Below, piece by piece: positions 6,270 to 55,677 of a stretch of DNA of 55,677 nt. The position numbers were made by a program, and so were the translations under genes. The stretch spans positions 1 through 55,677 of the forward strand of contig JALSIX010000102.1 in the NCBI GenBank assembly GCA_026989655.1, in the 5' to 3' direction. The notes beneath the pieces were generated by a model. That model was not told the origin of the DNA. It searched no databases and saw only the letters and a list, made by a program, of their open reading frames with translations. Every line of letters begins with the position of its first letter. Positions within the stretch are counted from its first letter, which is position 1. Source of the stretch: Caldilineaceae bacterium (GTDB taxonomy: Bacteria; Chloroflexota; Anaerolineae; Caldilineales; Caldilineaceae).

Positions 6270-8366
6270 CTACTCCATGTCCTTGTAGTAGAACTGCTCG
6301 GGGAAGACCGCACCGAAGTAGACCATGATCCAGGGGTTGGTGAAGCCTCCGGTGCCGAGCTGTTCCCGGGTGGTGGGCACGTTGCCCACGTTCCTCTGGG
6401 CCACCACGATGGTGGGGATGTTGGCCACGGTGCCGATGAAGAAGGGGCCTTCCTCGATGTGCACCTTCATGATCTCGAAGACGAGCTGCTCCCGTTTCTC
6501 GTCATCCGGCTCGATCTTGGCCTGGTCGTAGATGGCCCATAGCCGAGTCACGGGGTTGTCCGGCGGCGGCTCCTCCCGAGGCGGGTTCCGGTCCATGGGG
6601 TCCTTGTCCAGCTCCGTGCCCTCCTTGGGGGTGCCCAGGGTCGCGTACCAGGCGCCGTAGAGAGGGGCCCAGCGGTGGTTGCCGATGGGGACCACCCACT
6701 GGGGATAGACCAGGTGGTTCGGGCCGTCGCCCACCTCCCAGCCGCCCCGGATGTCGATCTGGTTGCCCTCCTGCATGACCGTGATCTGTTCACTGGGTAC
6801 CGGGTTGATGATGGTCTTCAGCCCCACGGCCTCCCAGTTCTCCTTGATGATCTCGTCGGTCAGGGTGTGTTCTCGGGAGGCATTGGCCGAGATGTCGATC
6901 CGGAGGACCAACTCCTTGCCGCTGGGCAGATCCCGCCAGCCATCGCCGTCCTGGTCCACCACCCCGGCCTCGTCCAGCAGGGCCTTGGCCTTTTCGGGAT
7001 CGTACTCCACGGCCAGGTCCCGCCACTGTTCGAAGAGCCGCCGTCCCTCCTCGGTGCGGTTGTACTCGATGGCCTTGGGGCTCATGGTGCCGGTGGTCTT
7101 GAAGCCGGTGCCGAAGTAGACCACCTTCTGGATCTTGTCCCGGTCGATGGCGTGGGAGAGGGCCCGGCGGAAGCGCTTGTCCTGGTAGACGGCCCGCTTC
7201 TCCGGGTCCGGGTGGGTGTAGTTGGGGTAGACCAGGGAGCCGGTGCCGGAACCGCCGTCCCAGAGCATGACGTTCAGGTTGGCCCGCTCCTCCGCATCCT
7301 TGAAGACCGAGAGCTCGCTGAGGGGCTGGTACTTGCAGGGCCGGCCACAGAAGGCCTGCTCGCCGTTGATCACCTTCAGCTTGGAGACCTCCAGGTCCTC
7401 CACGAAGGTCACCTCCACCCGGTCCCAGTAGGGAAGCTGGTTCCCCTCCGGATCCACCGCGTAGTAGTAGGGGTTTCGCTCCAGGATCATCCGGGTGCCC
7501 GGTTCGTAGAGGACGGGCATCCACGCGTTCAGGACCGGCCGCTCCGGGTTGATCTGCCAGAGCCGCTTCTCGTCGAAGACCTCGTAGGTGTCGTACTCGT
7601 CCGAGTACTTGGGGTGGAACTGCATCAGGTAGTGTTTGGGCACCACGAAGGTCTCGCTCCGATCCGGCACTCCGCTGTTGGGCCACATGGCCAGCCGGTC
7701 GGGGAAGAGGGGGGCCGGCGCGGCGAACGTGAACTTCAAGGTGTAGTCGTCGATCTTCTCCAGCTCCGCGGTTTTGCCGCCCGCGATCATCCAATCCGGG
7801 GGGCTCTCCGGGAAGTCCGGATTCAGGGCCATGTCCTCCCACCAGAAGAGGATGTCGTCCACGGTGAAGGGCTCGCCGTCGGACCACTTGGTCCCCTCCC
7901 GGAAGTAGAGGATCCACTCTGTCTTGTCCTCATTGGACTCCCAGCCCTTGGCCAGGCCCGGGCGCTTGTCCAGGCCATCTCGTACCCAGTGGATGGGCGA
8001 GTGGCCGTACATGGCCATGGCCAGGTGGTTGCCGTTCTTGTCCGTGTCGAAACGGCGCCAGGTCCCGCCGTACTTGCCGATGCTCTCGAACACCGGGATC
8101 ACGTAGGGCTCCTTGGGGATGCGCTCCTCCAGCGGGGGAAGCTCTCCTGCCAGCACCTTCTCCCGCAACATGGGGGCCTCCCGGATGGCCTCGGCGGGTG
8201 CCGCTTCCTCCTCCGCGGCCGGCGCCGCCTCCTCCGGGGGCGCGGCCGCCTCCTCCGGGGCTGGCTGTTCTGCCGGTGGGGCCGCCTGCTGGCAGGCGCT
8301 CAGCACCAGGCCGAGCACCAAGACCAGGGATACCCACCACAGGCCTCGGGTGGATCTGGGCAACAT
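6270..8366 (-). CDS. ABC transporter substrate-binding lipoprotein, family 5
   Basis: A 698-residue extracytoplasmic solute-binding protein (SBP_bac_5). A lipoprotein signal peptide ends in LVLSAC with the lipidated Cys at residue 25. An Ala/Glu/Pro-rich tether of about 40 residues follows, then the large two-lobed family-5 fold. It is longer than the usual 500-600 residues. The start has an excellent Shine-Dalgarno sequence (AAGGAGGAAGACC then ATG). It is the first gene of the importer operon and should set substrate specificity, which I cannot infer. Confidence 0.92.
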   Translation of the reverse strand: MLPRSTRGLWWVSLVLVLGLVLSACQQAAPPAEQPAPEEAAAPPEEAAPAAEEEAAPAEAIREAPMLREKVLAGELPPLEERIPKEPYVIPVFESIGKYGGTWRRFDTDKNGNHLAMAMYGHSPIHWVRDGLDKRPGLAKGWESNEDKTEWILYFREGTKWSDGEPFTVDDILFWWEDMALNPDFPESPPDWMIAGGKTAELEKIDDYTLKFTFAAPAPLFPDRLAMWPNSGVPDRSETFVVPKHYLMQFHPKYSDEYDTYEVFDEKRLWQINPERPVLNAWMPVLYEPGTRMILERNPYYYAVDPEGNQLPYWDRVEVTFVEDLEVSKLKVINGEQAFCGRPCKYQPLSELSVFKDAEERANLNVMLWDGGSGTGSLVYPNYTHPDPEKRAVYQDKRFRRALSHAIDRDKIQKVVYFGTGFKTTGTMSPKAIEYNRTEEGRRLFEQWRDLAVEYDPEKAKALLDEAGVVDQDGDGWRDLPSGKELVLRIDISANASREHTLTDEIIKENWEAVGLKTIINPVPSEQITVMQEGNQIDIRGGWEVGDGPNHLVYPQWVVPIGNHRWAPLYGAWYATLGTPKEGTELDKDPMDRNPPREEPPPDNPVTRLWAIYDQAKIEPDDEKREQLVFEIMKVHIEEGPFFIGTVANIPTIVVAQRNVGNVPTTREQLGTGGFTNPWIMVYFGAVFPEQFYYKDME

Positions 8367-8960
8367 GGTCTTCCTCCTTGTGGTGTGAAAGGGCGGATAC
8401 GGACGACTGAAATCGGTTCAGAAGCTCAGGATACAGCCACCACGGAGATTCGGACAGAGGCACGAAACCCAAAGCGCTTCACGGGATTCGGGACGGTCGT
8501 GCGAGCACCTTTGCCGAGACCATGTTTCCGCTGTGGACATGTCCCACGACCGGGAAGTGGATGTCGCCGTGGAGAGGTTCCACCACCAGTGCGTCCGGAG
8601 GCCGAAGGAAGACCTTCTCTCTGCTTTACAACTCTACCATGGGGGCGCGCAGGGGGGCAAACGGGCAAAAATTTTCAGTTTGCCGTCAGTTCTGTGGCGC
8701 GGACATCTGCTGTTGGCGTACCCCGGTATGGGCATCCGCTGTCCTCGCCTGGGCCGGCCACCCTGTGGTGCCCGCACGCTCTCTGCCGTCTCGGCGCTGT
8801 GATCGTCGACACCTCTCTTCCGTGGTCCATTCCCTATCGGTGCGGGCGTGCATCTGATAGGCTGCAGCCATCGCGAACCTTTTGAAGTGCCTTTTTCCAG
8901 ATGCGGATCTCCAGGCAGACCCCGCTACCGGCCCGATGTATCCAACCAGGAGAGAGAACC
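8367..8960. other. Divergent intergenic region with operator-like palindromes
   Basis: 594 bp without a supportable gene, between the importer operon (leftward) and the repeat-containing serine hydrolase gene (rightward). It holds CTGAA-N5-TTCAG at 8407-8421 and an AAGCGCTT palindrome at 8472-8479, resembling the core of LacI-family operators. Both lie 40-115 bp upstream of the binding-protein start, where a regulator of the importer would be expected. A third inverted repeat lies at 8656-8684. No convincing -35/-10 pair was found. Confidence 0.35.
8656..8684. repeat. Inverted repeat GGCAAAC-N15-GTTTGCC
   Basis: Perfect 7-bp arms at 8656-8662 and 8678-8684 flank an A5T4 core inside the divergent intergenic region. 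It could be an operator or a weak bidirectional terminator; its function is unknown. Confidence 0.4.
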
Positions 8961-11732
8961 ATGCACACCCCATTCCGTGGCAAAGCGTCTGTCCTGTGTA
9001 CACTGCTTCTATGCCTCTCCCTCGTGATGTCCACATCCTTGTCCTTGGCGCTGGCCCAGGAGCCCGGCCCGGCGGACGCCGCCGGCCCGCGCGACGGCAT
9101 CCAGGGGACTTCCGGCGGCCTGGCAGCGGCCGGCGTCCTGCCCAGCAGCCTCTTCGACCCGGATTCCATCGGCTGGGCCTCCCGACGAGACATGTCCAGC
9201 AGCGCCTTCAGCGATTGGTTCAACCAGATGAAGGACGAGTACATGCTCATCGACATCGAGGTGGACGAGGTCAACGGCCAGCAGCGGGTGGCCGGCGTCT
9301 GGCAGAGGAACACGGACAACCGGGGCTGGGCCGAGCACCGCAACCTCACCAGCAGCCAGTTCCATGACAAGTGGGTCAGCTACCGGGACCAGGGCTATCG
9401 CCTCATCGACCAGGAAGCCTATACCCTGGGCGGGACCCGGTACTACGCGGGGATCTGGGTGGAGAACAGGGAGGGACTGGCCTGGGCCTCCTTCCGGAAC
9501 CTGACCAGCCAGGAGTTCTCGAACAAGTTCCAGGAGTACAGCAAGAACGGCTACATCATGGTGGATGTGGAGGGATACCCTACCTCCAGCGGCCTGCGCT
9601 ACGCCATGATCTGGGTCGAGAACACCGAGGGGCTGGCCTGGGTGGAGTACCGGAACCTGAGCAGCCAGGAATTCGCGGACAAGTTCAACCAACTCAAGGC
9701 CACCTACCGGGTCCTGGACGTGGAATCCTATCGCCACAACGGGGTCCAGTACTACGCCGGGATCTGGGTGGAGAACAGGAACGGTCGAGCCTGGGCGGAG
9801 TACCGGGACATGACCGAAACGGGCTGGCGCAACCGCTGGTACCGCATGCGGGATCTGGGCTACCGTCTGGTGGACTTCGAGATCTACCCCACGGGAAGCG
9901 GCTACCGCTACGCCGGGGTCTGGCGCCAGAACACCGACCGGCCGGACTGGCCCCTGAAGGCCCAGGTGGACAGCTTGGCCCAGGCGTACATGGCCCAGAA
10001 CGATCTGCCGGGCATGAGCGTGGCCATCGCCCAGGGCGGGGTGATCCGCTACATGCGGGGCTTCGGATACCAGGACGTGGGCAGCGGCGTCTGGTACTCG
10101 GCCCGCACCCTCAACCGGCTGGCCTCGGTGAGCAAGGCCGTGGCCGGCGTCCTGGCCATGCGGCTGCTCCAGAAGGGAACCCTCGCCGACCTGGATGACC
10201 CCACCGCGGACTACATTGCCTCGCTGCCGGCCCACCACACCCACACCCTGCGCCAGCTCCTGAGCAACCGTTCGGGCATCGGCCACTACGAGGACTACAA
10301 CGTGCCCATCCAGGCCTACGCCACAGCCCTGGCCGCGGCCCAGACTTTCTGGAACACGGACAGCGATCCGAACACCCCGGGCACCCAACTGGTCTACATG
10401 CCGGGGGCCGGCTGCAAATACAGCACCCACGCCTACACGGTCCTGGGCGCCGCCCTGGAAGGGGCCACCGGCAAGAGCATCGGCGCCATCGTGGAGGACG
10501 AGCTCTCCGCCCCCTTCAACCTGCCCACCCTGCAGATGGAGGATCGCAGCGATGGCGACGCCAACCGCACCCGCCTGTACGGCACCAACAACGCGGAGAC
10601 GACCCCGGACGACATCAGCTGGAAGGTGTTGGGGGGCGGCCTGGAGGCCTCGGCCTACGATCTGGTGCGCTTCGGGATGAAGATCCTGGATGGCACCATC
10701 CTCTCCCAGGCCTCCCGGGACGAGCTGTGGAGCGTGCCCGCGCCGGTGTTCTGCACGGCCTACGCCCTGGGCTGGAGCGTGGGCACAGAGCAGGGCACCC
10801 CGGTGGTGGCCAAGGACGGCGCCCAGCGCGGCGCCCGCACCTATATGCGCATCTATCCAGAGCAGGAGATCGTCATCGTGATCCTCTCCAACCGGCGGAA
10901 TGGCCACAACCCGGGCAACTTGGGCAGGGACATCGGCGCGCTGATGCTGGACAACCTGCCCAAGCCACCTGCTACCCCCTACTGGATGGACGGCATCGCC
11001 CATTTCGCGCTCGGCGACACCCAGGTCTTCTGGAACGAGAAGCGCCAACTGGTGGCCCAGGAGATCGGTGACGGCCAGGACGAGGGCATCTCCATCCAGC
11101 CCGGTGACGCCTACCTGTGGCGAGGGGACCTGGCCCTGGGGTTCGACATCCAGAGCCGTCTGCCCATGACCCTGTCTCTCACCAGCTACTCGGGAGCCTC
11201 TGCTCGGGAGACCTCTCGCCTCCTCCTTCGCGCCAGGGCAGGCGGATTGGAGCTGCTGCCCTCATTCTCGGGCCGGCAGGTGCGGGTCCAGTTCCTCCAG
11301 GACGACACATTGGTCCACGAAAGCACCGTGCCTTCCACGGGACCGGCGGCCACCTCTCCCTTCGATCTGGTCTGGTGCATTCTGGAAAGCCCTCCAGGAA
11401 CTCCCACCGAGCTGTGCCGGATCTTGGTGGAGCACTATCGCAACCAGGCCGGCAACTGGGAGTGGAACCTGCGCCTGGCCGGTCCTGTCCTCTGGGCCAG
11501 CGGCGACGGTCAACGGATCCGGGCCGACCGGGTGCGCATGGAGGCCCTGCCGGCCGGTCCAAGGGCCTCCACAGGGGCCGACGCGACCATCGCCCAGGTG
11601 CGGGTGCGGGCCGCGAACTTGGAGACCCTGGTCTTCCTGGATGAGTTCGCCGGTGGCCCGGAGAGCATCCCGCCAGGACCAGGCGGTCAGTCCGGCAACC
11701 CGACCATCTTCCTGCCCGTGGTCGTGCGCTGA
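8961..11732 (+). CDS. Secreted serine beta-lactamase-fold hydrolase with five N-terminal BTRD1-type repeats
   Basis: A 923-residue exported protein. The signal peptide (about residues 1-32) ends in LALAQ. Residues 65-330 hold five repeats of ~48 residues with the pattern W(A/V)xxRxLxSxxF...GY...D...Y...YAGIWVEN. These match the bacterial tandem repeat domain seen in polyglycine-hydrolase-like proteins. A class C beta-lactamase/esterase domain follows (about 334-680), with SVSK (Ser389, Lys392) as nucleophile and base and a Tyr487-Ser-Thr motif where Tyr-x-Asn is usual. The last ~230 residues look beta-rich. ATG 8961 follows AGGAGAGAACC; the open frame reaches 8901 but would put 20 residues before the signal peptide. 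A peptidase or esterase role is more likely than antibiotic resistance (inference). Confidence 0.88.
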
Positions 11733-45949: not shown

Positions 45950-48511
45950 CTACACCCACTTGGCCAGACCCAGTTCGTAGGGGTGGATCAGCTCTGGGTG
46001 GTGGGGACGTACCCGGATGCCCACGGCCAGGCGTCCGCTGTCCTCGGGATGGAGCACCCCTCGATAGTCCACCGCGCCGTCGGGCCGCGACTTCTCCGGC
46101 TCCATGGGCACGGCCCGAGGCCGACGCAACAGGCCCTCGGGATCGGGGGCTCCCACCACGATCTCCACGGCCAGGTCCTCGGGCTGCAGATGCCCGGACC
46201 ACACCCGAGCGCCCAGCTCCACCGGATCGCCCACATGGGCCTGGGCCGGGACGCCCCGGAGGAGCTGGATCTGGACCGTGGACCAGTGCTCCCGGATCCG
46301 TCGCTTCCAGGCGGCCACCTCCCGGGCCACCCGAAAGCCCTCCAGCCGGTAGCGGCGGCTGTGTGCGTCCGCGGGGATGTAGTAGGTCCGGATGTAGTCC
46401 TTGACCATGCGGCGGGTGCTGAACCGGGGGGCGCAGCTCCGCACCGCAGCCCGCATTCGCTGCAGCCAGGCCTGGGGGATCCCCTCCTCGTCCCGTTCGT
46501 AGTAGGCCGGCAGGATCTCCTGCTCCAGGAGCGCGTAGAGGCTCAGCGCGTCGGCCTCGTCCTGGGTCTCCTGGTCCTTGTATTCCCGCTTCTCGCCGAT
46601 GGCCCAACCGTTGCTGCCATCGTAGGCCTCGTGCCACCAGCCGTCCAGGACGCTGAAGTGGGGCACCGCGCACAGGGCAGCCTTCTGGCCGCTGGTGCCG
46701 CTGGCCTCGTAGGGGCGACGAGGGGTGTTGAGCCAGAGGTCCACGCCGGCCACCAGATGGCGGGCGATGTGGATATCGTAGTTCTCCACGAAGACGATCC
46801 GGCCCTGGAGCTCCGGATCCTGGCTGAGCTGGTAGACCCGCTGCAACATGGCCTTGCCCGGCTCGTCCTTGGGGTGGGCCTTGCCCGCGAAGATGATCTG
46901 GACCGGCCGTTCCGGGTCCGTCAGGATCCGTCGAATCCGCTCCAGGTCTCGGAAGATGAGGGTGGCCCGTTTGTAGGTGGCAAAGCGGCGGGCAAAGCCG
47001 ATGGTCAGGATGTCGGGATCGAGCAGGCCTGCCGCCCAATCCAGCCGACGGGGCCCCTCGCCGTGGCGGCGGAACTGGGCCTGCAGCCGCTCCCGGATCC
47101 GCGCGATGGCCTGCTCCTTGCATCGGCGATGGGCCGCCCAGAGTTCCTGGGCAGGGATGGCCTCCAGGGGCTTCCAGGTCCCGGGATCGTCCACCTCCTC
47201 CAGCCAGTCGTCGGGCAGGTAGCGGGCGTAGAGCTCCCGGAGCTCCGGCACCAGCCAGGTACCCGTGTGGACCCCGTTGGTGATGTGCCCGATGGGCACC
47301 TGCTCCACCGGCAGATCGGGCCACAGGTCCCGCCACATCCGCCGGCTCACGTGGCCATGGAGCTGGCTGACACCGTTGTGGTAGCCGCTCAGCCGGAGGG
47401 CCAGGACGGTCATGTTGAAGTGGGGGCCCCAGCCCTGGTCGTATCGGGCCAGGTCCATGAAGCGGTCCCGATCGATGCCCAGTTGTCCCCAATACTGCCA
47501 GAAGAACTTCTCCACCAGCTCGAAGGTGAAGGCATCGTGGCCCGCGGGCACAGGAGTGTGGGTGGTGAAGAGGTTGCCGGCCCGGACCACCTCCACCGCG
47601 GTGTCGAAGTCCAGGCCCTCTTCCTGGACCAGCTCTCGGATCCGCTCCAGGCCGAGGAACGCGCTATGCCCCTCGTTCATGTGCCACACCGTGGGCCTCA
47701 GGCCCAGGGCCCGAAGCACCCGTACCCCACCGATGCCCAGGACCACCTCCTGGCTGATGCGCATCTCCGTGTCGCCGCCGTAGAGCCGGGCGCTCAGCTC
47801 CCGGTCCTGGGGCGCGTTGCGTTCCACGTCTGTGTCCATCAGGTACAGGGCCACCCGCCCCACCTGGATGCGCCACACCTCCGCGTAGACCGTCCGCCCG
47901 GGCAGGTCCACGTGGACGAGGATGGGACGCCCCTGGGCGTCCGTGGCCTTGGTTGCGGGCACTTCGGCGAAGTCGATCTTCTCGTAGAGGGCTTCCTGGG
48001 TGCCGTCTGCGGCGATGCGCTGGGTGAAATAGCCCTGGGGATAGAGGAAGCCCACCCCCACGAAGGGAAGGCCCAGGTCGCTGGCCTCCTTGCAGTGGTC
48101 GCCGCTGAGGATGCCCAGGCCACCGCTGTAGATGGGCAGGGATTCGTGGAGGCCGAACTCCGCGCTGAAGTAGGCCACCAGGAAATCCTCCCGAGGACCG
48201 AACTCCCGGCGGAACCAGGTGTCCGCATCCGGGTCCATGTAGGCGTCGAACGCGGCCATGACCCGATGATAGTGGTCCAGGAAGTCCGGATCCCGGGCCA
48301 GACGGTCCAGGTGACGTTGGCGGACGTCTCGCAGGAGCTTCACCGGATTCTGGTTCGAGGCCTGCCACAGCTCCGGGTCGATGCGTTCGAACAGGGCCTG
48401 GGCGTCCGGGTGCCAGCTCCACCAGAGGTTGTAGGCCAGCTCCTGGAGCCGGGCAACGGCCTCTGGGAGCCGGGGGAAGACGGAGATGCGTCCGATCAGG
48501 TGGATGGGCAT
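45950..48511 (-). CDS. glgP: Alpha-glucan (glycogen/maltodextrin) phosphorylase
   Basis: An 853-residue GT35 enzyme of the bacterial/archaeal short type, releasing glucose-1-phosphate from alpha-1,4-glucans. The N-terminal ELAYNLWWSWHPDAQALF is the hallmark of this subtype. The active-site region shows SGGLGILSGDHCKEASDLG, HMNEGHSAFLGLERI, GHITNGVHTGTW and, near the pyridoxal-phosphate site, EASGTSGQKAAL and NGWAIGE. ATG 48511 (MPIHLIGRIS) is chosen against a longer frame to 48559. It lies 63 bp downstream of pgl, linking glucan breakdown with the pentose phosphate pathway. Confidence 0.95.
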   Translation of the reverse strand: MPIHLIGRISVFPRLPEAVARLQELAYNLWWSWHPDAQALFERIDPELWQASNQNPVKLLRDVRQRHLDRLARDPDFLDHYHRVMAAFDAYMDPDADTWFRREFGPREDFLVAYFSAEFGLHESLPIYSGGLGILSGDHCKEASDLGLPFVGVGFLYPQGYFTQRIAADGTQEALYEKIDFAEVPATKATDAQGRPILVHVDLPGRTVYAEVWRIQVGRVALYLMDTDVERNAPQDRELSARLYGGDTEMRISQEVVLGIGGVRVLRALGLRPTVWHMNEGHSAFLGLERIRELVQEEGLDFDTAVEVVRAGNLFTTHTPVPAGHDAFTFELVEKFFWQYWGQLGIDRDRFMDLARYDQGWGPHFNMTVLALRLSGYHNGVSQLHGHVSRRMWRDLWPDLPVEQVPIGHITNGVHTGTWLVPELRELYARYLPDDWLEEVDDPGTWKPLEAIPAQELWAAHRRCKEQAIARIRERLQAQFRRHGEGPRRLDWAAGLLDPDILTIGFARRFATYKRATLIFRDLERIRRILTDPERPVQIIFAGKAHPKDEPGKAMLQRVYQLSQDPELQGRIVFVENYDIHIARHLVAGVDLWLNTPRRPYEASGTSGQKAALCAVPHFSVLDGWWHEAYDGSNGWAIGEKREYKDQETQDEADALSLYALLEQEILPAYYERDEEGIPQAWLQRMRAAVRSCAPRFSTRRMVKDYIRTYYIPADAHSRRYRLEGFRVAREVAAWKRRIREHWSTVQIQLLRGVPAQAHVGDPVELGARVWSGHLQPEDLAVEIVVGAPDPEGLLRRPRAVPMEPEKSRPDGAVDYRGVLHPEDSGRLAVGIRVRPHHPELIHPYELGLAKWV

Positions 48512-48574
48512 GGGGAAACTCCAACTCCTTCCAGTCTCTGGGGCGATGGCCAGGCGCAACGGTCCCCGCGGAGG

Positions 48575-49492: not shown

Positions 49493-52291
49493 ATGGAACC
49501 CATGGCCGTCCAACCCGCATCCTCGGGCCCAGAGCGCCCGACGGAGGGCTCGCTGCATCGCCCTGGGGCGGACTGGATACTCTGGGCCTCGGTGTTCGCC
49601 GGGAGCATGGGGCTGGCCGGGCTCTTCCTGGCCCCCCTGTGGAGCCGTCCTGGCCTTCCCAACACCGCGGACGGGCTGCTCCACGTCCAGCGGGCCGCGG
49701 TGTTGGCCTGGAGCCTGGACCAGGGGGTCCTCTGGCCCCGGTGGCTGCCCCAGGTCTACGCGGGCCTGGGCGCGCCGGTGTTCCACTACTACAGTCCCCT
49801 CTTCCACTGGCTGATCGGCCTGTTCCACTGGGCCGGCGTTCCCCTGGATGTGGCGGTGAAGGCCCTTGTCACGGCCGGATTCGTGGCCGGAGGGCTGGGC
49901 GTCGGGGCCTGGCTGTGGGGCCTGCTGTCCATCCGTCGACCTGGATCCCTGCTGGTGGGCATGGCCCTCTACCTCTCCGCCCCCTTCCTCTTCCGGGAGT
50001 ACTACGTACAAGGGGACTATCCCCAGCTTCTGGCCTGGATGTGGACCCCCGTGTGCCTGGCCGGGGTGACGGCTCTCCACGGAAATGGCCATCCTGCCCT
50101 GCGCCTGGCCGTGCCCCTGAGCCTGGCCATCCTGGTACTCCTCCACCATCTGACCGCCCTGCTGGTGGCCGGGCTGTTGGTCCTCTGCTGGCTGGCCCTG
50201 GCCGCCCTGGCCCCCCAGGGGAGGGGCCTATGGCGCACGGCCATGGGCGGTCTGCTGGGGCTCGGCCTGGCCGGGTTCTACTGGTTGCCGGCCCTGGGCG
50301 ACCTGGCCTGGGTCCAGATCGAGCGGGCCCGCTCCGGTTTCTTTCTCTATTCCCGTTACTGGCTGAGCGGGTCGGAGCTCCTCTCGCCGGTGCCGGTGAT
50401 GGACACCCGGGCGGCCAACCCACCCTTGCCCCACACCCCTGGGCTTCCGGCATGGCTGGCCCTGGCCCTTGGAGGCCTTCTGTGGGCACGGCCGTGGGCA
50501 CGAGGCCGGTGCCCACCGCGGCAGGGCCGGGAGCTCTGGGTCGGTGCGGCCCTGGGGGTGGCCGGCCTGGCCCTCGCCCTGACCACCGCCCAGGCCGCCC
50601 CCCTCTGGGAGCGTCTCTCCCTGTTGCAGATGTTCCAGTTTCCCTGGAGGTTCCTGGGCCTGGTCTCCCTGGCCGCGGCGCCCGTGGCCGCGTGGACGCT
50701 GGACCAACTTCAGGGACGGCTGCGTTCCCTGGCCTTGGTGACCGCTCTCCTGGGGATCGGGGTGGCGGCAGGGCCCTTCCTCTTCCCCAACCGGCCCTTC
50801 CTCCCCCTGGCCCAGGTGGGCCTGGAGACCATCAAGGCCCGGGAACAGGCGGTGGGCACCTGGGGCACCACGGGCAGCAACGAGTTTCTGCCGATCTGGG
50901 CCGATCTGGAGGCCATTCTCCAGCCAACGGTCCGTTCCCAGGCCCTGCCGGTGAGGTGGCGTTCACCCCACCGGGGGGATACCTGGGTGCCGGGGACCGA
51001 GGCCCCCTCTGCCCTGGACCTGCGTCTCCTCTACTTCCCCGCGTGGCAGGTCCACCGGGCGGACGGGCGCCCGGTGGCCGCGGAGCCCTCCCCTGTGGGG
51101 CTGCTGCGGGTGCGGGATCCCGGCGTGGGTTCCCTCTCCATCCGTTGGGCTGGAAGCCGGTGGCAGCACCGGGGCGCGTGGCTGAGCGCCCTGGCCGGCA
51201 TCCTGGCCCTGGCCTGGGCCGGGAGGGCTCTCGGTCCAGAGAGCGGGCGAGGAAAAAGGCCGGCACCGTCTCCAGGGTTCGTGGTGGACTCGGCCCGCCG
51301 GGAGGCGCTATGGGGGCTGGGCGCCCTGGTGGGCCTGATGGGGGTGCGGGCGCTCCTGGCCCGGCATCCCTTGGGGATCTTCCAGCGCCATTCGCCGCCT
51401 GGCCAGGTGCTGGGTGTGGCCCACCCGCTGGATGTGCCCTTGGCCCTGGACGGGGTAGAGCGGGTGTCCCTGCTGGGATGGGAGCTGCTCACCACACCCC
51501 GCCCCCGGCCGGGGAGCGGGGTGCGGGTTCGGCTCTACTGGCAGCCCCTGGGGCCCCTGGATGTGGACCTGGCCAGCATGGTCCACCTCTACACCCCGGC
51601 CACCCGGACCTCCTGGGCGGTGGGGCAGAACATGCACCCGGGCCAGATCCCCACCCGACACTGGCATCCTGCCCTCTACTACGTGGACCAGGTGGAGATC
51701 TCCCTTCCCGTGGATACCCCTCCGGCCACCTTCACCCTGGCGGCAGGGCTGGTCACCCGGGACGATCGGCGGCTGTTGCCGCCGGGCAACCCGGATGGCC
51801 TGATCTTCCTGGGAGAGATCCGGCTGGAGCCCCTGCGCGCGGGGTGGCTCCAGGCGGTGCGGCCCCAGGTGCCCACCCCCGCGGACACAGAGGTGGGGCT
51901 CCATCTCCAGGGCTACGATCTGCTCCCCGCACCGGGTGGCCCCGTCCTGCGCCTCTACTGGACCCCTGTGGCGCCGGTCCGCCAGGATTGGACCGTCTAC
52001 GTTCACCTCTACCATCCCCGGGGCCCGCGGATCGCCCAGTACGATGGGCCTCCCCTGGCCGGGCTGCTTCCCACCCGGGAATGGGAGCCCGGCCGTCTAT
52101 ATGTGGACCGCCGGGTGTTGCCCCTGCCCGAGCCACTGGAGCCGGGGGTCTACCGCTTCCTCGTGGGCCTGTATCGGGTGGAGACCGGGGAGCGAGCCCT
52201 CTTCCGGCCGAGGTCAGGGGCCCCGTCCAATGCCTTCCAGGACGGCGGGCTGGTCATCGCCATGGCGGTTTCGGGAGAACCACGGCCGTGA
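49493..52291 (+). CDS. PTPS-related polytopic membrane protein with two C-terminal beta modules
   Basis: A 932-residue protein. The first ~570 residues hold a dozen or so hydrophobic segments; the first external loop has the pattern ADGLLHVQRA...WPRWLPQVYAGLGAP-FHYYSPLFHW of the 6-pyruvoyl-tetrahydropterin-synthase-related membrane family, which resembles GT-C glycosyltransferases. A further membrane pair lies near residue 570-620. The last ~270 residues contain two modules (RVRLYWQPLGPLD...MVHLYTP and LRLYWTPVAPVRQ...YVHLYHP) like those at the end of the protein encoded at 14119-16959. ATG 49493 is chosen with a second ATG at 49502; the leader may be very short. Probably surface glycan assembly; the substrate is unknown. 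Confidence 0.8.
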   Translation: MEPMAVQPASSGPERPTEGSLHRPGADWILWASVFAGSMGLAGLFLAPLWSRPGLPNTADGLLHVQRAAVLAWSLDQGVLWPRWLPQVYAGLGAPVFHYYSPLFHWLIGLFHWAGVPLDVAVKALVTAGFVAGGLGVGAWLWGLLSIRRPGSLLVGMALYLSAPFLFREYYVQGDYPQLLAWMWTPVCLAGVTALHGNGHPALRLAVPLSLAILVLLHHLTALLVAGLLVLCWLALAALAPQGRGLWRTAMGGLLGLGLAGFYWLPALGDLAWVQIERARSGFFLYSRYWLSGSELLSPVPVMDTRAANPPLPHTPGLPAWLALALGGLLWARPWARGRCPPRQGRELWVGAALGVAGLALALTTAQAAPLWERLSLLQMFQFPWRFLGLVSLAAAPVAAWTLDQLQGRLRSLALVTALLGIGVAAGPFLFPNRPFLPLAQVGLETIKAREQAVGTWGTTGSNEFLPIWADLEAILQPTVRSQALPVRWRSPHRGDTWVPGTEAPSALDLRLLYFPAWQVHRADGRPVAAEPSPVGLLRVRDPGVGSLSIRWAGSRWQHRGAWLSALAGILALAWAGRALGPESGRGKRPAPSPGFVVDSARREALWGLGALVGLMGVRALLARHPLGIFQRHSPPGQVLGVAHPLDVPLALDGVERVSLLGWELLTTPRPRPGSGVRVRLYWQPLGPLDVDLASMVHLYTPATRTSWAVGQNMHPGQIPTRHWHPALYYVDQVEISLPVDTPPATFTLAAGLVTRDDRRLLPPGNPDGLIFLGEIRLEPLRAGWLQAVRPQVPTPADTEVGLHLQGYDLLPAPGGPVLRLYWTPVAPVRQDWTVYVHLYHPRGPRIAQYDGPPLAGLLPTREWEPGRLYVDRRVLPLPEPLEPGVYRFLVGLYRVETGERALFRPRSGAPSNAFQDGGLVIAMAVSGEPRP

Positions 52292-52318
52292 CCATGATAG
52301 ACCACCTTCCTCTCATGT

Positions 52319-55300
52319 TCATGCCAGGATCTGTTCCAGAAGCCTGATGGCGACACCCCGTTGCAAGGTGTCATGAACCCGCTGATTTTGATAGTTGCGC
52401 AGACAATTGTAGCAACTGGTCTCTTCACCGCATTCACAGCGCACCAATCTATCCAAGGCAGCCTGGGCTGTTTCCCGCAGGTGGTCATGGATACGCCGCA
52501 CATGGCCCGCCCCTCCTGGCACGTTGTCGTAAAGGATGAAAGAAGGTGACTGACCACCTGCTTGATAGTAGAAGACTCCATGAATGTCCGTTCTTTGGAT
52601 GTCCAAGGCCTCGCTGGCTCCGTCGAGGAGGGCATAAAGGAGGGAATGAGGGGCTCCTGGCATCGACATGGAGATATCGAAACGCACCTCCAGCACATCG
52701 GTCATGAAACGGTGCCCCAGATGCCAGATACGGAACGAGCCCTTGCACTCGCGCCCGGTGAGCGGGTTTTTGTGTGTTTTTTGCCGTTTTCGGCGACTGT
52801 TTTGCCGCTGTTTGGCGGCTGGCTCCGCAGCGCCACAGGAGGTGCATACCCGAAAGCCAGCCCGATAGCCTGTATTTACCAGGGCCAACCAGCCATAACG
52901 AGAGTAGCGCTTCCAGGTGGGCACATGAGCGAAGCTGGGATCTTGGAGCAACTCGGGAATGCTCTGCTCGTCCGCGGAGATGCCTTCGGGCAGTTGGTAG
53001 CGCACGAAGTGCACCTGGCTGGCATAGATGCGTTGGGGCGGCGCCTCACCCGGTGAACGGGTGTCGCCGCCGGCAACGAAACCTGCTTCCGGCACGATGA
53101 GAGCGCCTCCGCTCTTGAGTTCGGCACCACATGTGCAGTGGGCCGGGAGAGTCTCACCTGGTTCGATGGTCATGCGCTGACATTGGGGACAGATGGCGTA
53201 CCGGTAAGGAGGCCATTCACGGCCTGGCAATTTGCGAATGCCTGTGCTTTGCCAGATCCGCTTGGCCGCTACCACCTCTGCGCCAGGAGCGAATTCGGAA
53301 ATGGCGATGCGCAGATCCCGCTCAAGTGCGATTTCCGTCGCTCTGCCAATACTGCGTAGATGATTGGTCTTCAGCTCCACCACATCGGTGGGAAAACCGT
53401 ATTTGGGTAGAACGTTCCGGGTGCCCAGGAAGCCTAGCAAATCACGACGACGAATGTTGTTTTGAACTTTGCTATAGTACTTTGCACTATCATTTTTCTG
53501 TTCAAAAAGCCGACATTGTCCCTTTTCAAGAGCATTAGTTGCTTCTTCCAAGGCTCTGCGGGCCAAATCGTGGAAAGTTTGGATTTCACCAACGACTTCT
53601 GCGGTCGCACGATCCAAGATGCCGTTTTCATCTGGACTTTGCAGACGATGGGTCCAGGCCCAGCCGGGGAACTCCAGCTCCCGACGGGGTAGCTCTTCCT
53701 CCGGTGGCAGGATGCGGTCCAGAGCCTGCTCCAGCTTGTCTGGGCGACCTTCGAGGAACTCTCGGAGCAGTTCGGGACCCGGCGAACGGTCCAGAGGGGC
53801 GAAAAATTCACCGACTGTGCGGTAGGTGACACCGTGCTGTTCCTTGGCCCAGCGAAAGAAGGCAGCAAAGGCCACCGAATGCATGTGGCGGCGCACGATC
53901 TTCTCATTGCTCAACACGACCACGGGCGGGCGGATCTTGCCGGCCACCATCTTCTCCGGCTGCTCGTAGTAGGAGAGGTCATGAGAGCGACGCTGCGCGA
54001 AGGTGAGGACAAAGGCTGCCGTATCGGTGCGGCGACCGGCTCGGCCAGCGCGTTGGACATAGTTGGACGTGGTGGGCGGCACGTTGCGCAGAATAACCGC
54101 CTGCAGATCGCCGACATCCACACCGAGTTCGAAGGTGGTAGAGCAGCTCAACACATTGATCTCGCCGCGAACAAAGCGGCCCTGCACCTCAGCGGCCTTC
54201 TTCGGGATCCACTGAGCGGTATGTTCCTCCACCTGGATGGGTACAGGATCGCCTCGCAGATAACTATCCCGATAGAGGTTGTCCTCAATGGCCATGGAGT
54301 AGCCGGCCAAAGGCTGCACCGTGCCCTCACATCCGTACACCGGGCACACCCCGTGCACATTTATCCCTGTGATGTTGTGGCAGCGGTTGCAGATCCACCA
54401 GCCTTCCATCTCGCCTTGGACGGAAGGGATCACCTCCCACATGCGGTGGTCCAGACGATAAACTGTTCCCTCTCGTTTTATCGTTTCGTCTACTAGATGC
54501 TTCCGCCAAGGACCGCTCGCGCTCGTCAGGTAATCCCAAATGGTCCACAGGGCAGCCCGGGCCAGATCTCCACTCTCCTCCTTGGAAACACCGCGGCGGT
54601 GCAACACTTTGCGTAGAATCTCCAGGCGGCCGTTGCTGTACTGGTCGCTGGCCGGGGCCCAACCATAGATAGCCCAATCCCTGGTCGAGCAGGCACTCTT
54701 TCCACGCACATAGCCTGCTTTGTTGCGCGGGGCAAAAGCCTCATTCTTGTAGAGATCACCTCGCTCCGGGAGAAGATACGTGGTCACCCCCTGCCAGCGC
54801 AATGTGTTCAACAACACATGGAGCAGATCTCGAAACGTGGTCGAATCGAGATCCCAGGGTGAATCCGAAAAAAGTGAGGGCGGAGTCCAGTTGCCTGGCT
54901 CTACCGGACGAAAATGCAGCAGACCTACCCCCTCCAGGCTGATACGCCGGTCCAGGGGCATGAACTCCTGCATGAGCCAGATAGCTACCTGCTCTTTGCG
55001 TTCCTCATAGCCTTTACGCTCGTCAAAAAAGCCTGCCTTCTCGGCATGTGTGATCAGAGGGGATAACAGTTCCTGAAGCCTGAGATGCTCCGGACGAATG
55101 CTCTCCCGGGCTTCCATCTGCTGCAACATGTCCACGATCAGACGACGGCGAATAGTACGGTTATGAACCCGCTCTAGATAGGCCGCGAAGAAGGCCGCGT
55201 TCTGGCGACTGTCGGTGAAATTGAGCATCTTGCGGCCCTGTCCTGGCAACTCCCGGCTGTCCGGTTCTCGAGCTGGGGGCACGTGTTGGTAGAGAGCCTG

Positions 55301-55677
55301 AGCCAGGATGCTAACAGGCGCGTCCTGGCCGGTGAGGAAACGATACACAACGCCCCGGCTGGCCTGGGTGGAACAACTGACACAACGCTGCAAGGTGCGG
55401 TGTTGGCCCTGTTGCACCTGATACACTTCAATTAGGTTACACCTACAAGTGCATGCACGTGGCTCGAATTCCCCATAGACCGCGCCACAGACCGGACATA
55501 GACGCATCAGCTTGGCTGTTGTGGTCTCGGCGGTCAAATCTCGCATGTCGACATCGGAAGCGATGGTTTCGTCTTCATCCTGGGGCGCCATATTGGCCTG
55601 AAGAGCGAAATATTTCACGTTTCGGGCCACTTCCTCGTAGACGGCGCTGTTCTGGATCAGATAGTCTAGACGCTGCC
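52319..55677 (-). CDS. Very large DEAD/DEAH-type helicase with DUF1998, C-terminal part (5' truncated by window edge)
   Basis: The frame is open to the window edge (first full codon at 55675), giving the last 1118 residues. A Cys-rich segment is followed by RKMLNFTDSRQNAAFFAAYL (start of the helicase C domain). The second RecA domain shows TTFELGVDVGDLQAVILRN and the arginine-finger motif QRAGRAGRRTD. Further Cys clusters and a DUF1998/MrfA zinc-binding domain follow, with CYNCLRNYQNQ and a RG-terminated end. The missing N-terminal part should hold the Walker motifs. Candidates are the Druantia DruE type, other defence helicases, or an MrfA-type DNA repair helicase. GC content and codon use are visibly lower than in the rest of the window, suggesting horizontal acquisition. 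Confidence 0.85.
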   Translation of the reverse strand, partial: QRLDYLIQNSAVYEEVARNVKYFALQANMAPQDEDETIASDVDMRDLTAETTTAKLMRLCPVCGAVYGEFEPRACTCRCNLIEVYQVQQGQHRTLQRCVSCSTQASRGVVYRFLTGQDAPVSILAQALYQHVPPAREPDSRELPGQGRKMLNFTDSRQNAAFFAAYLERVHNRTIRRRLIVDMLQQMEARESIRPEHLRLQELLSPLITHAEKAGFFDERKGYEERKEQVAIWLMQEFMPLDRRISLEGVGLLHFRPVEPGNWTPPSLFSDSPWDLDSTTFRDLLHVLLNTLRWQGVTTYLLPERGDLYKNEAFAPRNKAGYVRGKSACSTRDWAIYGWAPASDQYSNGRLEILRKVLHRRGVSKEESGDLARAALWTIWDYLTSASGPWRKHLVDETIKREGTVYRLDHRMWEVIPSVQGEMEGWWICNRCHNITGINVHGVCPVYGCEGTVQPLAGYSMAIEDNLYRDSYLRGDPVPIQVEEHTAQWIPKKAAEVQGRFVRGEINVLSCSTTFELGVDVGDLQAVILRNVPPTTSNYVQRAGRAGRRTDTAAFVLTFAQRRSHDLSYYEQPEKMVAGKIRPPVVVLSNEKIVRRHMHSVAFAAFFRWAKEQHGVTYRTVGEFFAPLDRSPGPELLREFLEGRPDKLEQALDRILPPEEELPRRELEFPGWAWTHRLQSPDENGILDRATAEVVGEIQTFHDLARRALEEATNALEKGQCRLFEQKNDSAKYYSKVQNNIRRRDLLGFLGTRNVLPKYGFPTDVVELKTNHLRSIGRATEIALERDLRIAISEFAPGAEVVAAKRIWQSTGIRKLPGREWPPYRYAICPQCQRMTIEPGETLPAHCTCGAELKSGGALIVPEAGFVAGGDTRSPGEAPPQRIYASQVHFVRYQLPEGISADEQSIPELLQDPSFAHVPTWKRYSRYGWLALVNTGYRAGFRVCTSCGAAEPAAKQRQNSRRKRQKTHKNPLTGRECKGSFRIWHLGHRFMTDVLEVRFDISMSMPGAPHSLLYALLDGASEALDIQRTDIHGVFYYQAGGQSPSFILYDNVPGGAGHVRRIHDHLRETAQAALDRLVRCECGEETSCYNCLRNYQNQRVHDTLQRGVAIRLLEQILA

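Follow-up and report, generated by a model that had tools for sequence, protein, structure and literature searches.

Our results strongly suggest that the gene at the right edge of the window (the whole stretch of DNA analysed, 55,677 nucleotides) is druE, the helicase gene of a Druantia III-type system that protects against phage with two genes and was acquired horizontally. They place it in the branch whose helicases lack a nuclease, with a divergent druH probably lying just upstream, beyond the end of the contig. In itself the gene is ordinary, a further DruE of an already known kind. It represents the C-terminal two thirds of a DruE and occupies a minus-strand reading frame of 1,118 open codons that has no internal stop and runs off the right edge of the window. 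The initial annotation described it as cut by this edge, which is correct, but the assembled contig itself (C102 of the bin, exactly 55,677 bases) stops there too, which rules out an extension to the right, and the end that is missing is the N-terminal one. The features of the region are the following:

52319..55675, minus strand: druE, C-terminal 1,118 codons, with the N-terminus cut by the contig end
55373..55498, minus strand: zinc-binding module CPVC...CxC...CVSC, amino acids 60-101, with cysteines invariant in 23 relatives
54029..54238, minus strand: Helicase_C domain (RecA2; Pfam), amino acids 480-549, with motif VI (QRAGRAGRR, amino acids 541-549) intact
52400..52636, minus strand: MZB zinc domain (formerly DUF1998; Pfam), amino acids 1014-1092
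52292..52318, no strand: boundary between the host gene and the low-GC gene, 27 bp between convergent stop codons, where the GC change falls
49493..52291, plus strand: large membrane protein of the host flank, start codon approximate, with a homologue beside GlgP in genome G018
45950..48559, minus strand: GlgP-like alpha-glucan phosphorylase of the host flank, 68% identical in G018

The gene had been described as coding for more than 1100 residues with a helicase C domain, cysteine clusters and DUF1998, and this is what we find: Pfam identifies Helicase_C and MZB, and CxxC motifs lie at six places along the 1,118 codons (amino acids 60, 98, 429, 829, 944 and 1088). The four-cysteine MZB domain is fused behind RecA2 and keeps its cysteines. 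In an alignment with 23 relatives, the QRAGRAGRR motif and the paired cysteines are invariant, as are Cys 60, 63, 77, 98 and 101 of the N-terminal zinc module. The protein ends 27 amino acids beyond the last cysteine pair of MZB (26-40 amino acids in 58 relatives), and neither Pfam nor the C-terminal length reveals a domain after MZB. With so short a tail the protein therefore lacks a C-terminal nuclease, in which it differs from E. coli DruE (2,104 amino acids). The N-terminus of druE (its initial ~600 residues, with RecA1 and its Walker A and DEAH motifs) and everything upstream lie outside the window; full-length DruE relatives have RecA1 with Walker A and DEAH.

We found neither the N-terminal half of druE nor a DruH-like partner gene anywhere else in the bin. 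As these ~600 residues and the partner are absent from the bin, the window druE may be a solitary or dead helicase. The visibility of the C-terminal part only, together with the missing N-terminal half, would also suit a decaying remnant of which the C-terminal half alone is left, but this is unlikely, because the 1,118 codons are free of stops, none of the motifs or invariant cysteines has been lost, and the gene breaks off where the contig ends. We infer that the window copy has its own druH and is active.

The assignment to the DruE family was already the first guess, with MrfA, DISARM and Dpd as alternatives, and the search with defence models (PADLOC) decides in its favour. Seven DruE models rank above all others, at 207-386 bits (DruE1 at the top, 386 bits, E=1.4e-115), whereas models from outside Druantia score far lower (47 bits for BrxH, the best of them, only 37 for DrmA and 31 for DpdF). 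The three alternatives are disfavoured. When PDB chains were searched with a profile built from the window protein and four relatives, E. coli DruE (9tu7) came first with 443 bits, against 92 bits for MrfA. The AlphaFold2 model of the window protein (pLDDT 80, low at residues 532-588, which hold motif VI) matched MrfA best (amino acids 108-1117, Z 15.1, 342 aligned residues, 5.2 Å), and over amino acids 771-1115 it matched DrmB in the DrmAB structure (Z 9.7). The query mattered for finding relatives among the genome contigs: a single-sequence scan returned 0 and an alignment query 496. The viral contigs held one distant DruE only.

Known systems with related helicases differ from the window protein in their architecture. 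DISARM encodes the DrmA helicase and the MZB protein DrmB separately, whereas the window protein has both in one frame. The YprA-type helicase of ARMADA carries a C-terminal Vsr nuclease, while window DruE has no domain in this position. In Dpd, DpdJ loses the MZB cysteines that window DruE keeps, and the match between the two is only E=3e-5. MrfA (YprA) has the RecA2-OB-MZB fold in common with window DruE, but is much smaller and acts in a repair context. It is nevertheless worth asking whether the gene could encode an unusually large form of a YprA/MrfA-type DNA-repair helicase, given its MZB domain and MrfA fold. This is very improbable: the DruE models beat all others, the zinc modules and the full length of >1,600 amino acids in relatives are those of defence DruE, the gene shows no synteny with host genes, and an MrfA-like helicase of 976 amino acids is already present on contig C17 of the same bin. 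Separately, at the locus L038 (2561-11811, genome G058) a DrmMI/type IIG-like methyltransferase immediately precedes a YprA-family helicase, an order that resembles DISARM or ARMADA.

The composition and the neighbourhood of druE fit its acquisition in the window's lineage. The initial annotation had placed a sharp change of composition after position 52300, and the GC content indeed falls from a host mean of 0.688 (52 segments of 1 kb, sd 0.022, minimum 0.638) to 0.577 in druE (z -5), the shift lying within 52292-52318. At third codon positions, GC is 0.64 in druE vs 0.88-0.92 in the three flanking host genes. The named relatives of the genome are Chloroflexota. A genome from the same family as the host (G018) offers the comparison with a relative lacking the insertion that had been proposed: GlgP (68% identity) still lies next to the membrane protein (43%) there, ABC-transporter genes then follow, and the corresponding stretch has no helicase match. 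The helicase is thus not part of a conserved host synteny. No convincing direct repeats or tRNA were found at the druE boundary. The suggestion that the start of a defence island lies here is borne out only in part: the partner of druE would lie beyond the contig end, no copy of it turned up in the bin, and its existence is deduced from relatives.

In these relatives, 64 of the 66 co-directional upstream neighbours of druE (>600 amino acids) belong to one family, and the median gap between partner and druE is -4 bp (66 loci). The PADLOC models of DruH match none of 40 members of the partner family, although they recover E. coli DruH at E=0, and ordinary HMM searches do not recognise E. coli DruH from the relatives' partner. 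In a comparison by hhalign, the partner family matched a profile of seven DruH proteins at 96.9% (score 104.7, 347 columns), and the match is colinear (329-738 with 370-728). The controls gave 27.8 for the reversed profile and 15.5-20.4 for ten column shuffles. An earlier comparison with one E. coli DruH sequence had given 0.7%, most likely a matter of sensitivity, since the profile of seven sequences is positive. In the AlphaFold model of one partner (pLDDT 86), the N-terminus is helical, tandem Ig-like domains span 243-858, and helical repeats are present as well; the same architecture is reported for E. coli DruH (PMC13192584). Among the matches listed in fold searches with this model there were only generic multi-Ig proteins, and the absence of 9tud there carries no weight. 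On the strength of the profile comparison, we identify the partner as a very divergent DruH, the homology being demonstrated over the Ig-like region only.

This divergent family has 64 linked members (e.g., L047:4690-8265) that are missed by PADLOC 2.0.0 and found by profile-profile comparison alone. The taxa of the branch include Chloroflexota, Bacillota, Actinomycetota and some archaea; plasmids gave no match to the partner protein from Nocardiopsis. Because the PADLOC models miss the DruH of this branch, surveys that rely on PADLOC and demand both DruE and DruH (e.g., PMC13192584) may undercount Druantia III outside Proteobacteria.

The phylogeny points to the same branch. In a FastTree analysis of 62 DruE-type proteins, with some long branches, the window druE falls in a clade of 50 rows (SH-like support 99) that includes the Microbispora locus L120 and leaves out the references for Druantia I (from P. 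putida, where an annotated DruA lies alongside), Druantia II (cyanobacterial, taken as such) and E. coli-type Druantia III; window DruE is thereby separated from the DruE of E. coli and M. parvus. Helicases of the published Druantia III-like branch are most often without nuclease, and its III-B representative is GIH50614.1 (PMC12458937). Window DruE fits this III-like/III-B nuclease-less branch (PMC12458937): the DruE of its relatives has ~1,550-1,780 amino acids with DEAD, Helicase_C and MZB domains and no nuclease, and a large DruH-like gene lies directly upstream, although the assembly contains neither the N-terminus nor the partner of the window copy. The E. coli Druantia III (ECOR19 type, PMC13192584; PDB 9tu7, 9tud) shares the druH-druE order with the window's relatives, the helicase plus MZB core of DruE, and a DruH whose profile matches the relatives' partner in the Ig-like region. 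In contrast, E. coli DruE has two C-terminal PLD nuclease domains, neither of which occurs in window DruE, and it falls outside the window's clade.

Two experimentally studied pairs indicate how such a system might act. In M. smegmatis, a DruH of 1,132 amino acids and a DruE of 1,667 amino acids, with no nuclease domain, block phage; they halt the circularisation and replication of phage DNA, require DruH-DruE contact, and are triggered by a minor tail protein (PMC13316683). By size and domain content this pair (MSMEG_1253/1254) can tentatively be placed in the window's branch; its sizes match those of the actinobacterial members (1,136 and 1,640 amino acids in L103). The helicase DruE of E. 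coli forms a dimer and loads onto 3' single-stranded tails; its DruH has a dimer-dependent nuclease activity and probably senses the phage (PMC13192584). By analogy, window DruE most likely works like these pairs. DruH, with its helical N-terminus, Ig-like chain and helical repeats, would sense a phage structural protein. DruE would engage phage replication or entry intermediates by loading on their 3' single-stranded tails and then translocate, its OB-CON-MZB canopy gripping the strand, and the pair would stop phage DNA from circularising and replicating. Cutting, if any, would fall to DruH or to host nucleases, because DruE of the window type carries no nuclease.

The neighbourhoods of the closest relatives raise a different possibility. 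DruH-DruE lies beside BREX genes in 12 Chloroflexota loci, most of the BREX-linked loci being in one 15-row Chloroflexota clade of the DruE tree that also holds the window. These loci include its two closest relatives, L059 (63%; the same contig as L030) and L045 (57%), both with the order DruH-DruE-PglZ-BrxA. Five loci of Anaerolineae (L048, L049, L065, L077 and L106) have the order BrxC-PglX-DruH-DruE-BrxA, and PglZ was not found in their genomes. L051 has PglX-DruH-DruE-BrxA, L070 and L088 have DruH-DruE-BrxA, and L063 and the Thermoflexus locus L062 begin with BrxC. The window druE might therefore be part of a hybrid of BREX and Druantia: a divergent DruH and a DruE without nuclease would stand in for BrxHII (in some species also for PglZ) as the helicase and sensor module of a type-3-like BREX operon. 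The presence of BrxC, PglX, PglZ and BrxA beside some close relatives of the window druE recalls type-3 BREX, although BrxHII is a Swi2/Snf2 helicase and DruE a YprA-family one. A PglZ-BrxA pair in the same bin also speaks for the hybrid: contig C8 (L129, G000:C8) starts at low GC with the PglZ C-terminus and BrxA (1-1607), and GC then rises from ~0.60 to 0.72.

We regard the hybrid as a tentative and rather doubtful reading of the window gene. There is neither BrxA nor PglZ, nor any other BREX gene, 3' of the window druE, where a host gene adjoins instead. The PglZ of the bin shares only 34% identity with its L059 counterpart and resembles that of an ordinary type-3 BREX, and BrxC was not found in the bin; the start of C8 is the edge of another defence locus, probably a type-3 BREX. 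In the wider set, the majority of DruH-DruE pairs lack BREX genes in their vicinity. We also considered whether the PglZ-BrxA pair of C8 and the window could be two sides of one insertion, an idea we set aside as unproven: the genes flanking them, for the membrane protein and GuaA, do not lie side by side in relatives, and the arrangement would require both operons to diverge. Among the papers searched, none linked DruE to BREX and BrxC, and none brought Druantia together with PglZ and BrxA. If the hybrid were real, methylation-based self marking would be joined to DruH sensing and DruE translocation. BREX operons that contain DruH-DruE, in genomes where PglZ was not found, would make it possible to investigate which of the proteins acts as the BREX effector.

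Other genes lie beside druE at related loci. A NERD-UvrD helicase (PADLOC RTasNERD-Hel/C3a187) lies directly 3' of druE in several of them, e.g., L063 (13265-14947) and L053 (13193-14869). In L057, druE is directly followed on its 3' side by a second, very divergent DruE-like protein of 1,438 amino acids (6427-10740) and then by a UvrD-type helicase.
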